Of a stretch of 64,000 nucleotides of DNA, positions 35,325 to 42,308 are shown piece after piece. A model generated the notes under the pieces. The model searched no databases, was not told where the DNA came from, and saw nothing but the letters and a program-made list of their open reading frames with translations. The first letter of the stretch is position 1. The number at the start of each line of letters is the position of its first letter. Source of the stretch: Pedococcus aerophilus (GTDB lineage: Bacteria; Actinomycetota; Actinomycetes; Actinomycetales; Dermatophilaceae); NCBI RefSeq assembly GCF_039532215.1, contig NZ_BAAARN010000002.1, positions 118,526-182,525 of the forward strand, given 5' to 3'. The position numbers and the translations under genes are program-made.

Positions 35325-37391
35325 TCAGACCGAGCCGGCGTCCACCGAGGCCGGGTCGTTCAGCGGCAGGTTGAGGGTGAATGTCGACCCGAAACCCTCG
35401 ACCGAGGCGGCCGACACGGCACCACCGTGCTGGCTCGCGATGCCGCGGACGATCGACAGCCCGATGCCGGTGCCCTGGATCGCCTGTCGCTGCGCGCTGC
35501 TGGAACGGAAGAAGCGGCTGAAGAGCTGGTCCTGCTCGTCCTCGGGGATGCCCATGCCGGTGTCCGACACCGACAGCATCGCGTTGGCCCCGCTGTGCGA
35601 GACCCGCACGGTGACGCTGCCGCCGTCGGGGGTGAACTTGATGGCGTTGCTCAGCAGGTTCATGACGAGGCGCTCGAGCTGTTCGGGGTCGGCGAGCACC
35701 GGAGTCGCCTGGCTGCCGACCTCCAGGTTCATCCGCAGGCGACGGTTGCGCAGCAACGGCGCCACCCCCTCGAGCGCCCCCTTGGCGGTGTCGCGCAGGT
35801 CGTGGGGGCGCAGGGTCGGGGCCGAGGCGCCGGACTCCAGCCGTGAGGCCGTCAGGAGGTCCTCTATGAGCACCATGAGTCGCTGGCCGTTGCGCCGGAT
35901 TCGGCCGAGCATGTCGCGCTGGTCCGCGTTCACGTCGCCGCCGACACCGTCGAGGAGCATCTCGGTGTAGCCGACCACGCTCGTGACGGGGGTGCGCAGC
36001 TCGTGGCTGACCGAGGAGACGAACGTGGACTTGGCGTCGTTGAGGCGCTGCAGCTCGCGTACGGCGTCGCGTTCCTTGACCAGGGCGGCCTCCAGCAGCG
36101 CACGGGCTCCGTGCTGCTCGGTGGTGTCGACGAGCTGCGCGGTGAACATGAAGTGCTCGCCGTCGCGGTTGAGGGGTGACAGCACCAGCTCGACCCACCG
36201 GGACGGGTCGTCGGCGAGCTGGACCTCGCCACGCCACCCGTTGGTGGTCTCGGCCATGATCGCCAGCATGCCCTCGCGGACGTCCTGACGGCCGGGCTCG
36301 AGGAAGTGTTCCAACCAGTCGGCGTCGGACACGAGGTCCGAGCGCTCCTGGCGCAGCAGGCGGGCCGCGACGTCGTTGGCCTCGATGGCGACGGGGTAGG
36401 CGTCCTCGCACTTGAGGATGAACATGCCCAGCATGGCGTCGGCGAAGCCGTGCCGGAAGACCTGCTCGCTCTCGCTCACGCGCGCCAGCAGCGCGCGCCG
36501 CTGCATCACGGTGAGCGACAGCGGCAGCACGGTGAAGGCGCACACCACCAGGAATCCCTGGGTCAGCGAGGCGACCGTCTCCGGCCGGACCAGCTTGCCG
36601 CTGGGCTCGAGGGCGAAGGGACCCATCGCCTGTGCCGTGATCGTGATCGCGAGGAAGCCGACGACGAGCAGCTGGATGCAGGTGGTTCGCAGGGAGTTGC
36701 GCAGTGCGCTCCAGACGAGCACGGGGATCGCGGTGTACGCGACCGGCTGGCCGTTGCCCAGGCCGAACACGACCGAGGTGCTCACGACCACTCCGACCCA
36801 CTGGATCACCCGCTCCCACCGTGGTCGGGGCACGAACCCACCGGTGTCGAGGAAGAGGGGCACCACGACGAGCAGCGCCGCCAGGTGCTGGGCCCCGACC
36901 GTGCGTGCGGTGGGGAAGAACGGCGACGGCGTGAAGGCGGTGGCGCTGAGTCCACCGATGATTCCCGCGATGCCCGCGCCCACGCTTGCTGCGAGCAACA
37001 GGCGCCAGAAGTCGTTCATCGTGCGCAGACGGCGACCCGGACCGCCGAACCCCAGCATGAGCAGTGCGACGACGGCTGCCTCGGCCATGTTGGCCACCGC
37101 GAACCCCCCGGCGCTCAGCGGCGGGCGTCCGCCGATGATGTTGACGACGAAGCAGGCCAGACCGACACCCGCCACCACCGCGACTCGCCGGCGACCCCTG
37201 GCCAGGAGCACTGCGCCGACGCTCACCCCCGCCGCGGGCCACCATGCCGCGACGGTGGAGCCGGGCGGCGAGAAGTGGACGGACGTCAGCATGAGCACGA
37301 AGACCAGGGCAAGCAGGGTCACGCCGACGACGACCTCGCGCGTCTGGTCCGGGATTCGGGACCAGCGACCCCGGAGGCCGTCGATGGTCAT
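35325..37391 (-). CDS. MASE1-type membrane sensor histidine kinase with PAS domain
   Basis: 688 residues. Eight or so N-terminal helices form a MASE1-like sensor (residues ~20-300, with TVAAWWPAAGVSVGAVLLARG). A PAS domain follows (~310-430, ending LVDTTEQHGARALLE), then a short coiled coil, HisKA with FVSSVSHELRTPVTSVVGY and HATPase with NLLSNAIKFTPDGG, DTGMGIPEDE and GTGIGLSIVRG. The start lies one base after the stop of the CheY-like gene, so both are one operon. Confidence 0.9.
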   Translation of the reverse strand: MTIDGLRGRWSRIPDQTREVVVGVTLLALVFVLMLTSVHFSPPGSTVAAWWPAAGVSVGAVLLARGRRRVAVVAGVGLACFVVNIIGGRPPLSAGGFAVANMAEAAVVALLMLGFGGPGRRLRTMNDFWRLLLAASVGAGIAGIIGGLSATAFTPSPFFPTARTVGAQHLAALLVVVPLFLDTGGFVPRPRWERVIQWVGVVVSTSVVFGLGNGQPVAYTAIPVLVWSALRNSLRTTCIQLLVVGFLAITITAQAMGPFALEPSGKLVRPETVASLTQGFLVVCAFTVLPLSLTVMQRRALLARVSESEQVFRHGFADAMLGMFILKCEDAYPVAIEANDVAARLLRQERSDLVSDADWLEHFLEPGRQDVREGMLAIMAETTNGWRGEVQLADDPSRWVELVLSPLNRDGEHFMFTAQLVDTTEQHGARALLEAALVKERDAVRELQRLNDAKSTFVSSVSHELRTPVTSVVGYTEMLLDGVGGDVNADQRDMLGRIRRNGQRLMVLIEDLLTASRLESGASAPTLRPHDLRDTAKGALEGVAPLLRNRRLRMNLEVGSQATPVLADPEQLERLVMNLLSNAIKFTPDGGSVTVRVSHSGANAMLSVSDTGMGIPEDEQDQLFSRFFRSSSAQRQAIQGTGIGLSIVRGIASQHGGAVSAASVEGFGSTFTLNLPLNDPASVDAGSV

Positions 37392-37392
37392 G

Positions 37393-37821
37393 TCAGCGCT
37401 CCCGCTGCAGCGGCAGGTCGGGGATGACGACCGGGGCCGGCGGCGGCAGCGTCGGCCGCTCGGTGAGCAGCTGCGCGACCACGGCCATGATGTGGGCAGG
37501 GCTGAACGGCTTGGTCACGTAGTGGTTGGCTCCGGCCAGGAGTCCCGCGTCGATCTCGAACGGTGACGTGCGCGAGCTGACGAGGATCACGGGCACGTGG
37601 ACCAGGCGACGCTGGCGCCGGATCCACCAGCACACCTCGATGCCGCTCAGGCCGGGCATCTGCACGTCGAGCAGGATGACGTCGGGGGTCAGGGTCTCGA
37701 GCATCCGCACCGCCTCACGGCCGTCCTCGGCGAGAGCGGTCTGGGCGCCGGTCCGGCCGACGGCCAACGACAACAGGTCGCGGATGTCCGCGTCGTCGTC
37801 GGCGATCAGTGCGAGGGGCAT
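37393..37821 (-). CDS. Single-domain (CheY-like) response regulator A
   Basis: 142 residues: receiver only, with IADDDADIRD, phospho-Asp in DVILLDVQMPGLSGIEV, Ser/Thr in ILVSSRTSP and Lys in VTKPFSP, plus a Pro-rich C-terminal tail. A near copy lies at 41856-42308: the stretch from LLDVQMPG to the Lys motif is almost identical. GGAG close to ATG 37821 supports this start; an upstream ATG at 37839 is possible. It may relay phosphate from the following MASE1 kinase. Confidence 0.88.
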   Translation of the reverse strand: MPLALIADDDADIRDLLSLAVGRTGAQTALAEDGREAVRMLETLTPDVILLDVQMPGLSGIEVCWWIRRQRRLVHVPVILVSSRTSPFEIDAGLLAGANHYVTKPFSPAHIMAVVAQLLTERPTLPPPAPVVIPDLPLQRER

Positions 37822-37849
37822 GGCTCCGGATTCTCTCATCGGGGGTGCG

Positions 37850-38087
37850 GGGACGGGCTCGAGATGGCGGGGGGATTTCCATCACGAGCCCGTCCCGGGC
37901 AGGGGCGGCATCGAGGCGTGCAGGGGTATCGCCTCGTCGCCGCTCCGGGGATTCCCTCGAGCCGACCGGGGGACGTCGTCTCGAGCTCGACCGCGGAGTG
38001 GACCGGCTCGGAGAGTGCAGGGGGGTCTCTCCGAGCCGGTCCGGTCCTCAGGGTCCCGCAGGGGGGAAATCCGAGACCCTCTTGACC
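37850..38087 (-). ncRNA. Array of five hairpins with C-rich loops (6C-RNA-like)
   Basis: Five consecutive inverted repeats: 37850-37896 (12 bp plus 5 bp, loop CGGGGGGATTT), 37912-37936 (7 bp, loop TGCAGGGGTAT), 37956-37985 (6+4 bp, loop CGGGGGAC), 38000-38042 (16 bp perfect, loop TGCAGGGGGGT) and 38043-38087 (4+6 bp, loop with six G). Read on the minus strand every loop is C-rich, with three runs of six C. That resembles the actinobacterial 6C RNA, which has two such hairpins. The array is upstream of regulator A, so it is either its leader or a separate small RNA. Transcription is not shown by sequence. Confidence 0.55.
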
Positions 38088-38127
38088 GGCACCATCCGGC
38101 GCCGAGGCCAATTCTGCGTCGGCGGGT

Positions 38128-38177
38128 GTGAAGGACGCGATGAGCAACCCGTGAAGTGCCGTGAAGATGGCGTGAAG
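38128..38177. promoter_or_regulatory. GTGAAG direct repeats, candidate OmpR/PhoP-type boxes
   Basis: GTGAAG occurs at 38128, 38151, 38161 and 38172; the last three are spaced 10 and 11 bp apart, the spacing of OmpR/PhoB-family tandem sites. On the minus strand the units read CTTCAC, near the Streptomyces PhoP unit GTTCACC. They lie about 140-190 bp upstream of the OmpR-type regulator gene. A further direct repeat CACTGGTCA follows at 38190-38208. The rest of 38209-38305 holds nothing I can name. Confidence 0.45.
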
Positions 38178-38305
38178 ATCGACGAAAGCACTGGTCATCA
38201 CTGGTCACGGACCGCCACCGCCACCGACCACCGGCCTACCGAGGCAAAACGTGGGACACAGGGGCGACCTGCGACGAAGTTGGTACGCGATGTCCGTTCT
38301 GTCTC

Positions 38306-38311
38306 TAGACT
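38306..38311 (+). promoter_or_regulatory. -10 box of the response regulator at 38319
   Basis: TAGACT, 7 nt before the ATG, consistent with leaderless transcription. Confidence 0.5.
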
Positions 38312-38318
38312 TCCCGAC

Positions 38319-39044
38319 ATGGCTCGGCTCATGGTGGTCGATGACGAGGCGCAGATCGTGATGGCGCTGACCCGCGGTCTCGAGCGGGAAGGGTACGACG
38401 TCGACGTGTCCCGCAACGGCCTCGACGCCGTCTCCCTGGCCGCATCCGGTGCACCGGACCTGATCGTGCTCGACCTCAACCTCCCGGACATCGACGGCAT
38501 CGAGGTCCTGCGACGAATCCGCTCCTGGAGCGCGGTACCCGTCCTCATCCTGTCCGGGGACGGGGAGGAGGAGCGCAAGATCGCCGCCCTGGACGAGGGC
38601 GCGGACGACTACCTCGAGAAGCCCTTCAGCCTCGGGGAGCTCCGGGCCCGGGTGCGCGCCCTGCTGCGGCGCGCCGGCGCCGCCCCGGACTCCGCCGTCA
38701 TCAGCACCGACGGGCTCGACGTGGACCTGGCCATGAAGACCGTGGAGCTCGACGGCGCAGCGATGCGCCTCACCCCGACCGAGTGGCGGCTGCTGGAGCT
38801 CTTCGTGTCGCAGCCGGGCAAGCTGCTCACCCATCAGTGGCTGATCGCCCGCATCTGGGGTGCCGGGCACGGCGACGAGACCGTCCAGACCCTGCGTGCC
38901 CACCTGCGCTCCCTGCGCGCCAAGCTGGGGGACGACTCCAAGGAGCCCCGCTTCATCCGCACCGAGACGCGCATCGGCTACCGCTGGGTGCCTCCGGTCG
39001 CCACCAACGCCCCTGCGGGAGGTGCGAGCAACCATGGCGGCTGA
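38319..39044 (+). CDS. OmpR/KdpE-family response regulator
   Basis: 241 residues. Receiver with VVDDEAQIV, Asp in DLIVLDLNLPDIDG, LSGDGEEE and LEKPFS; winged helix with LTPTEWRLLELFVSQPGKL and VQTLRAHLRSLRAKLGD, KdpE-like. The usual Thr of the receiver is replaced by Ser-Gly (ILSGDG). It begins the plus-strand arm of the signalling cluster and overlaps the next small gene by 11 bases. Confidence 0.9.
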   Translation: MARLMVVDDEAQIVMALTRGLEREGYDVDVSRNGLDAVSLAASGAPDLIVLDLNLPDIDGIEVLRRIRSWSAVPVLILSGDGEEERKIAALDEGADDYLEKPFSLGELRARVRALLRRAGAAPDSAVISTDGLDVDLAMKTVELDGAAMRLTPTEWRLLELFVSQPGKLLTHQWLIARIWGAGHGDETVQTLRAHLRSLRAKLGDDSKEPRFIRTETRIGYRWVPPVATNAPAGGASNHGG

Positions 39045-39285: not shown

Positions 39286-39708
39286 TCAGAGCTGGGTGGC
39301 CGTCGCGAACCGCTCGGGCAGGGGCAGGTCCGGCGCCTCGGAGCGGATGGCCCGTGCCACCACGGTCAGCAGGGCCCGCGTCTGGAACGGTTTGCGGACC
39401 ACCGCGAAGGCGCCCGCCTCGAGCGCATCGACCTCGATCTCGCTCTCCACGGACGCCGTGAGCATGACCGCGGGCACCGTGGACCCGGCGCTGCGCATGG
39501 AGCCGAGCACCTCCATGCCGTCGACGTCGGGCATCCGCAGGTCGAGGATGAGGCAGTGGGGGTCGACGGTCGCGAGCGCCGCGAGCGCGTCGGCGCCGTT
39601 CCCTACCGTGGTGACCTGGGCGCCGACGTAGGAGAAGGTGCGCTCGATGAGGACGCGGATGTCCTCGTCGTCCTCCGCGATGAGGACGCGAACGTCCTGG
39701 CTCCCCAC
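39286..39708 (-). CDS. Single-domain response regulator
   Basis: 140 residues, receiver only: IAEDDEDIRV, Asp in HCLILDLRMPDVDGMEV, Thr in VMLTASVES and Lys in VVRKPFQT, with a short C-terminal tail. Convergent with the HisKA-like gene (nine bases between stops). Less similar to regulators A and B than they are to each other. Confidence 0.88.
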   Translation of the reverse strand: MGSQDVRVLIAEDDEDIRVLIERTFSYVGAQVTTVGNGADALAALATVDPHCLILDLRMPDVDGMEVLGSMRSAGSTVPAVMLTASVESEIEVDALEAGAFAVVRKPFQTRALLTVVARAIRSEAPDLPLPERFATATQL

Positions 39709-41765: not shown

Positions 41766-41859
41766 CTGAGCCTGCCGCCGACGCGGGATCAGCATCCGGG
41801 GGGATGGCTGATCCCGCGGCGGCACCATCATGTCCGGGCCGCGCGACCGGCAGGCTCAG
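41766..41859 (-). terminator. Nested hairpin with C6 loop after response regulator B
   Basis: Outer arms CTGAGCCTGCCG (41766-41777) and its complement (41848-41859) enclose an inner 11-bp stem GCGGGATCAGC / GCTGATCCCGC (41783-41817) whose loop is ATCCGGGGGGATG, i.e. CCCCCC on the minus strand. It overlaps the regulator's stop codon and should act as its terminator, yet the loop matches those of the 37850-38087 array. Nothing else is evident in 41630-41765. Confidence 0.7.
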
Positions 41860-42308
41860 CGAGCTGGGCCGAACTCCGGGATGACGACAGCCGTGGGTGC
41901 GCGCAGCGCGGTCGGGGCGGTGGAGCGGCTGTACCGGTACTGGGCGATCACGCCGGAGATGTGGGCCGGCGTGAAGGGCTTGGTGACGTAGTGGTTCGCG
42001 CCGGCGAGCAGTCCGGCATCGATCTCGAACGGCGACGTGCGCGCGCTCACGAGCACCACGGGGACGTGCGCGAGGTGGCGCTGGCGGCGGATCCACCAGC
42101 ACACCTCGATCCCGCTCAGCCCGGGCATCTGCACGTCGAGCAGGATGATGTCGGGGTGCAGGGACTCCAGGAGGTGCACGGCCTGTCGACCGTCCTCGGC
42201 CAGGACCGGATCCAAGCCCGATCCCTGCGCCGCCATCGCCAGCACGTCGCGGATGTCCGAGTCGTCATCGGCGATCAGTGCCTGCGGACGTGCGCCCTGG
42301 GCCTTCAC
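41856..42308 (-). CDS. Single-domain response regulator B (paralogue of A)
   Basis: 150 residues, receiver only. IADDDSDIRD, Asp in DIILLDVQMPGLSGIEV, LVSARTSP and VTKPFTP; the central 65 residues are nearly identical to regulator A at 37393-37821, including CWWIRRQR and FEIDAGLLAGANHYVTKPF. No kinase is adjacent. Start GTG 42308. The stop codon lies inside the arm of a C-loop hairpin. Confidence 0.88.
   Translation of the reverse strand: MKAQGARPQALIADDDSDIRDVLAMAAQGSGLDPVLAEDGRQAVHLLESLHPDIILLDVQMPGLSGIEVCWWIRRQRHLAHVPVVLVSARTSPFEIDAGLLAGANHYVTKPFTPAHISGVIAQYRYSRSTAPTALRAPTAVVIPEFGPAR

Follow-up and report, generated by a model that had tools for sequence, protein, structure and literature searches.

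Background

Little is understood of how small RNAs act as regulators in actinobacteria; among the few mechanisms tested there is the action of C-run loops on G-tracts. In alphaproteobacteria, the CcsR1-4/cuckoo RNAs carry the CCUCCUCCC loop motif. B11 of M. abscessus, a 6C RNA, is reported to repress G-tract mRNAs, including a reporter with a six-G tract; according to the same report one loop is enough, repression is lost when both loops are mutated, and paired changes restore it (PMC10470900). A C-rich loop of M. marinum B11 is described as required for regulation (PMC12395582). For sX13 of Xanthomonas, three stable stems are described whose C-rich loops target G-rich motifs close to start codons (PMC3771888); CcsR1-4 of Rhodobacter are described as four related small RNAs that share a transcript with a protein gene, from which RNase E cuts them out (PMC10253847). 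Several C- or CU-rich small RNA copies under one two-component system are reported for Listeria (LhrC1-5; PMC4132741), and the CiaR-controlled csRNAs of streptococci are likewise described as multiple C- or CU-rich small RNAs under a single such system.

The locus described here is an array of five C-loop hairpins in a 64,000-nucleotide stretch of contig NZ_BAAARN010000002.1 of Pedococcus aerophilus (hereafter the window; all plain coordinates refer to it), whose genome is 4.02 Mb. It resembles 6C/B11 in being a tandem of actinobacterial GC-rich hairpins with C-run loops, but has five C-loop hairpins against two in the Rfam model, stands in a predicted operon leader, and has loops that often end in CUGCA. 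It shares C-rich loops on stable stems with sX13, which is described as a separate small RNA gene with three loops from another phylum. As in CcsR1-4, related units would stand in a row on the transcript of a gene; in the published description of CcsR1-4, however, the gene comes first and a terminator after, the partner is a DUF1127 gene, the promoter is of the sigma-factor type, and the phylum is different. Several C-rich units under a two-component system, as proposed below for the array, are also the pattern of LhrC1-5 and the csRNAs, which are described as separate transcripts and not as hairpins within one leader. The open-licence literature searched yielded no report of a C-loop leader with five hairpins, nor of actinobacterial tandem 6C-like arrays.

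Structure and rarity of the hairpin array

Five inverted repeats with C-rich loops on the minus strand had been predicted at 37850-38087, one of them with a perfect 16 bp stem. The repeats were found at those positions, and folding and shuffling agree with the prediction: on the minus strand, 37825-38110 forms five hairpins whose loops carry C-runs (z -6.89; none of 200 shuffles was equally stable), each of the five loops contains 4-6 C, and the perfect stem is that of hairpin B. The loops of the minimum free energy (MFE) fold are listed 5′ to 3′ in Table 1. Hairpin A is the gene-distal one of the five, and its stem is closed by an outer GGUC/GACC clamp. The five-hairpin array is real.

Table 1 Features of the array and its surroundings, in window coordinates
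Feature	Position	Strand	Remarks
Histidine kinase	35325..37391	minus	MASE1 + HisKA + HATPase_c, 688 aa; 1 nt past the regulator's stop
Response regulator	37393..37821	minus	receiver domain only, 142 aa; Pfam Response_reg 94.4 bits
-10-like box CAGAAT	38111..38116	minus	6 nt before the CGG opening hairpin 0
Hairpin 0	38088..38103	minus	short, at predicted 5′ end; GGCGCC/GGTGCC; window loop without C-run
Hairpin A	38043..38087	minus	with outer clamp; loop GATTTCCCCCCTG at 38059-38071
Hairpin B	38000..38042	minus	perfect 16 bp; loop ACCCCCCTGCA at 38016-38026
Hairpin C	37956..37985	minus	loop GTCCCCCG at 37967-37974
Hairpin D	37906..37943	minus	loop ATACCCCTGCA at 37919-37929
Hairpin E	37850..37896	minus	loop AAATCCCCCCG at 37868-37878
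Four CTTCAC repeats, candidate operator	38128..38177	minus	38172-38177, 38161-38166, 38151-38156, 38128-38133
-10-like TAGACT	38306..38311	plus	7 nt before the divergent gene's ATG; read from sequence
Divergent OmpR-type response regulator	38319..39044	plus	Response_reg + Trans_reg_C

A C4-loop hairpin was defined as a hairpin with CCCC inside a 7-14 nt loop. None of 1000 dinucleotide shuffles contained five of them, whether stems of at least 8 or at least 10 pairs were required; at stems of at least 8 the shuffles had a mean of 0.4 and a maximum of 4. Under a looser CCC rule five hairpins were reached by 3 of 1000 shuffles. A survey of 464 kb of the genome (the window and twenty 20-kb samples) yielded 477 C4-loop hairpins, and the array was the sole group of at least four; groups of three within 260 nt occurred at 9 other places. 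In 192 further loci, which add up to 1.01 Mb with overlaps counted, the only groups of at least four were at the arrays of the window and of its relative Root101 and at two other Root101 loci (L135 and L147, described below).

Genetic organization and promoter signs

The array lies on the minus strand between 38104 and the start codon of the response regulator gene (37821), directly upstream of the response-regulator/kinase operon as had been claimed. No output domain was found in the regulator and no Pfam family other than Response_reg. By this operon, the nearest named relatives are Phycicoccus sp. Root101 (G005) and Phycicoccus sp. Soil748 (G006). Two further genes for receiver-only response regulators lie nearby on the minus strand (39286-39708 and 41856-42308); the latter is a paralogue of the array-led one (71-72% identical), and no C-loop hairpins are found upstream of it.

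The -10-like box in front of hairpin 0 keeps its position in the three genomes (CAGAAT in the window and Root101, CACGAT in Soil748). From this conservation and the spacing, we infer a minus-strand transcript start near 38104. A scan of 37600-38500 with the sigma-70 consensus found no promoter. No terminator-like site was detected in the same region, nor a U-run after a hairpin, and an array of intrinsic terminators was therefore rejected. Since neither a terminator-like site nor a sigma-70 consensus promoter is present, nothing here points to a free small RNA.

The divergent OmpR-type gene has KdpE as its top NCBIfam score, under the KdpE cut-off. Its TAGACT box lies 6-7 nt before the ATG in all three genomes, which suggests that the gene is leaderless; its plus-strand transcript would therefore begin beyond the array and leave it out. 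The two distal CTTCAC repeats and the proximal CTTCA(C/T) are kept in Root101 and Soil748, and the genome has a single copy of CTTCACGNNATCTTCAC and none of the reversed control sequence. The repeats and the unique CTTCACGNNATCTTCAC suggest that the neighbouring OmpR-type regulator, which may bind here, is in control.

Covariation, conservation and coding test

The loci of the three genomes were aligned, with hairpins C-E compared in two. In this alignment 96.7% of 182 cells were paired, a figure favoured by the structure having been taken from the window sequence. Ten base pairs were changed on both sides and still paired, compared with a mean of 4.4 in shuffled alignments, of which 0 of 500 reached 10; slid controls gave 0-2 such changes. 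Of the two-sided changes, three are in hairpin A, four in B, one in C and two in D, those of C and D coming from Root101 only. None was found in hairpins E and 0: the stem of E is nearly invariant between the window and Root101, and hairpin 0 has one-sided variation in 2 of 6 pairs, with all cells paired.

The window and Root101 differ at 6 of 51 loop, 21 of 147 stem and 23 of 57 linker positions; for Soil748 the corresponding differences are 4 of 23, 16 of 70 and 9 of 13 (gapped columns left out in both comparisons). Linker divergence is thus about three times loop divergence. In the window and in Root101, the longest reading frame that crosses the array contains no stop codon. Substitutions nevertheless fall 16/18/16 on the three codon positions of this frame, against 7/5/29 in the regulator gene, and a protein-coding leader was rejected for lack of a third-position bias.

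The ten double-sided compensatory pairs, together with the loops conserved in relatives, support the claim of selection at the RNA level. The same data bear on whether the inverted repeats might be a DNA-level feature, or chance, with no RNA function: at a G+C content of about 71% hairpins are common, but the array was not reached by shuffles, its stems covary and its hairpin density is unique, and we consider such an origin hardly credible. We conclude that the array is a real, conserved, noncoding, structured leader. It is probably a working regulatory RNA, for which we infer transcription, regulation and targets.

The probable transcribed strand

Folded as a whole, the minus strand has the array as its MFE structure (z -6.89), whereas on the plus strand the five-hairpin fold is lost in the MFE structure (z -3.84). 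The conserved stems contain 8 G.U cells on the minus strand versus 2 A.C cells, which would be G.U on the plus strand (one-sided binomial 0.055). When the hairpins were folded singly, 0, A, C and E were stabler on the minus strand and B and D on the plus strand. The whole-strand fold, the lean of G.U usage and the -10-like box favour the C-loop strand originally proposed, and the minus strand is likely the better candidate for the RNA, by these indirect signs.

A plus-strand RNA with G-rich loops could act as a CsrA sponge. The genome has a CsrA gene (G000:C1:1955622-1955774, 84.1 bits), and GGA can be read in 3 of the 5 plus-strand loops of the window. It is missing, however, from window loops D and B and from hairpin B of Soil748, so that not every loop carries it; moreover, the complete plus strand misfolds, G.U usage leans to the minus strand, and the apparently leaderless divergent gene leaves no evident plus-strand promoter. 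A CsrA sponge is therefore highly improbable.

Distribution among relatives

The response regulator was found at E ≤ 1e-35 in 3 of 396 order-level genomes, those of the window (G000), Root101 and Soil748, and the array in the same three. The five hairpins of Root101 follow one another as in the window, and Soil748 has two (A and B). The N-terminal part of the kinase had matches at E ≤ 1e-30 in 18 of 186 family genomes, with an identity of 71% in Root101, 60% in Soil748 and 33-48% in the remaining matches. As controls, the 300-nt upstream regions of the paralogous regulators of G000 and Root101 (71-74% identical) and of a homologue with 66% identity from an Intrasporangiaceae MAG (L036) were scanned, and none held a hairpin. 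The rule used in this control (stem of at least 7) finds 5, 5 and 2 hairpins before the three orthologues; one of Root101's five under it is a different overlapping structure, and hairpin B of Root101, with an interrupted C-run in its loop (CCTCCC), needs the CCC rule to be seen. Since the L036 homologue is roughly as similar to one paralogue as to the orthologues, the absence of the array there does not show that it was lost.

A covariance model of hairpins A-B (R1) scored 111.9, 107.6 and 93.1 bits at the three orthologous loci, from which it was built and which it must therefore find; its best score elsewhere in the genus, outside the arrays, was at most 29.5 bits. Beyond the three loci, the array model matched only G145 (34.6 bits; E ≤ 0.1, 186 family genomes) and, weakly, G234 (31.4 bits; 396 order genomes). 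The G145 match was rejected as an array of the wider family, being a single hairpin located at the end of a long reading frame, and the 29-bit Root101 matches and a match in G008 were rejected because folding showed no array. The large array-model searches score just 10-22 candidates per genome, so diverged arrays were possibly missed.

That the array was found solely before this operon, 3 times of 3, is what would be expected if it acted only in cis, the hairpins setting the translation or stability of the operon's own mRNA (through a protein, a small RNA, Rho or as a 5′ stabiliser) with no targets in trans; and since no terminator-like site precedes the gene, the array would be joined to that mRNA. 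A purely structural role needs no C-runs in every loop, however, and the loops differ little while the linkers change freely. In addition, the predicted fold leaves the ribosome-site region partly open, and pairing to it is predicted for none of the loops. A leader of this kind seems to us unlikely.

Relationship to 6C and other Rfam families

At gathering scores, the Rfam search of the window gave no match besides two tRNAs. For the best hairpin pair of the array (37997-38080, minus strand), the 6C model (RF01066) gave 24.8 bits, short of its gathering score of 47. In the Root101 and Soil748 loci, cmscan found nothing matching 6C at E ≤ 10, and a genome search with the 6C model gave 19.7 bits on one stretch of Root101's array. 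A separate 6C-like match of 39.8-51.3 bits is present in 11 of 11 genus genomes, exceeding the gathering score in 4; in the genome of the window it lies at G000:C1:1801313-1801387, and the array is on contig C2. Conversely, the array model scored at best 20.7 bits on the 11 6C loci. On these three counts, the sub-threshold match, the separate 6C and the unconvincing scores of the array model at 6C loci, the array is not a simple copy or expansion of 6C, and this part of the original prediction was rejected. Hairpins A and B, as well as the two-hairpin version of Soil748, nevertheless follow the 6C plan of two adjacent hairpins with C6-type loops.

Scr3202 (RF02833), also an actinobacterial two-hairpin RNA with C-run loops, gave the best sub-threshold score, 31.2 bits, and a second match of 19.3 bits, both below its gathering score of 52; the match covers just parts of array hairpins D and E.

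Three other loci were noted in these searches. The canonical 6C locus of Root101 (L135) has four C4-loop hairpins at about 1480-1667, versus two in the Rfam model. A possible second group of C-rich-loop hairpins lies on the minus strand of G005:C12, also in Root101 (L147, about 1440-1560; 6C model 32.0 bits, under threshold), between a short reading frame and a membrane-protein-like frame, which we take to resemble a TauE/SafE-type protein. A lone, perfect-looking hairpin of about 20 bp with a seven-C loop is found on the plus strand at G000:C3:164552-164607 (L146; 6C model 32.4 bits).

Proposed mode of action

We lean slightly towards a minus-strand leader RNA with trans-acting C-loops under OmpR-type control. 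From a promoter near 38104, the minus strand would be transcribed as a 5′ leader of about 283 nt of the response-regulator/kinase mRNA, folding into the short 5′ hairpin and five hairpins that show their C-runs as single-stranded loops. These would pair with G-rich sites near the start codons of other mRNAs, of the type UGCAGGGG, the complement of the commonest loop, and block translation, the five loops giving several pairing chances per molecule. The leader might act while still part of its mRNA, or as a small RNA released by processing or by an early end of transcription. The divergent OmpR-type regulator probably controls transcription through the CTTCAC repeats, and the two-component signal would thereby set the dose of C-loops. 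In a fold of the leader and gene start the array loops are predicted to be 81-100% unpaired, and the pairing chemistry of B11 and sX13 would therefore be available five times. Within the window, TGCAGGGGG occurs in the array itself only, and no local target was found. By analogy, a 6C-like working, with C-loops on G-rich mRNA sites and the neighbouring regulator in control, appears most likely.

Csr-type RNAs achieve multivalent protein capture by repeated loops. Repeated loops on differing stems would also fit such capture here, with five copies on the minus strand titrating a protein that prefers C-rich loops. We know of no such protein in these bacteria, however, and the receiver-only regulator has no RNA-binding domain; a protein decoy is thus improbable.

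Returning to the pairing of C-loops with mRNAs, a more tentative possibility is that the array represents an undescribed class, a leader controlled by a two-component system whose multivalent C-loop antisense would join or compete with the genome's own 6C on G-tract mRNAs, a single transcript providing both the five C-loops and the signalling proteins, with hairpin number (two or five) as if tuned for dose.

Conclusions

The array is most plausibly a new variant among C-loop regulatory RNAs. Because its 6C match is sub-threshold and separate 6C-like matches exist in all 11 genus genomes, it is not filed under 6C, though its smallest version, with two C-loop hairpins, shares the 6C plan. If the proposal is true, 6C-like activity would be placed under a specific signal and its strength altered through hairpin number, and the three genomes with two or five hairpins would form a natural series.
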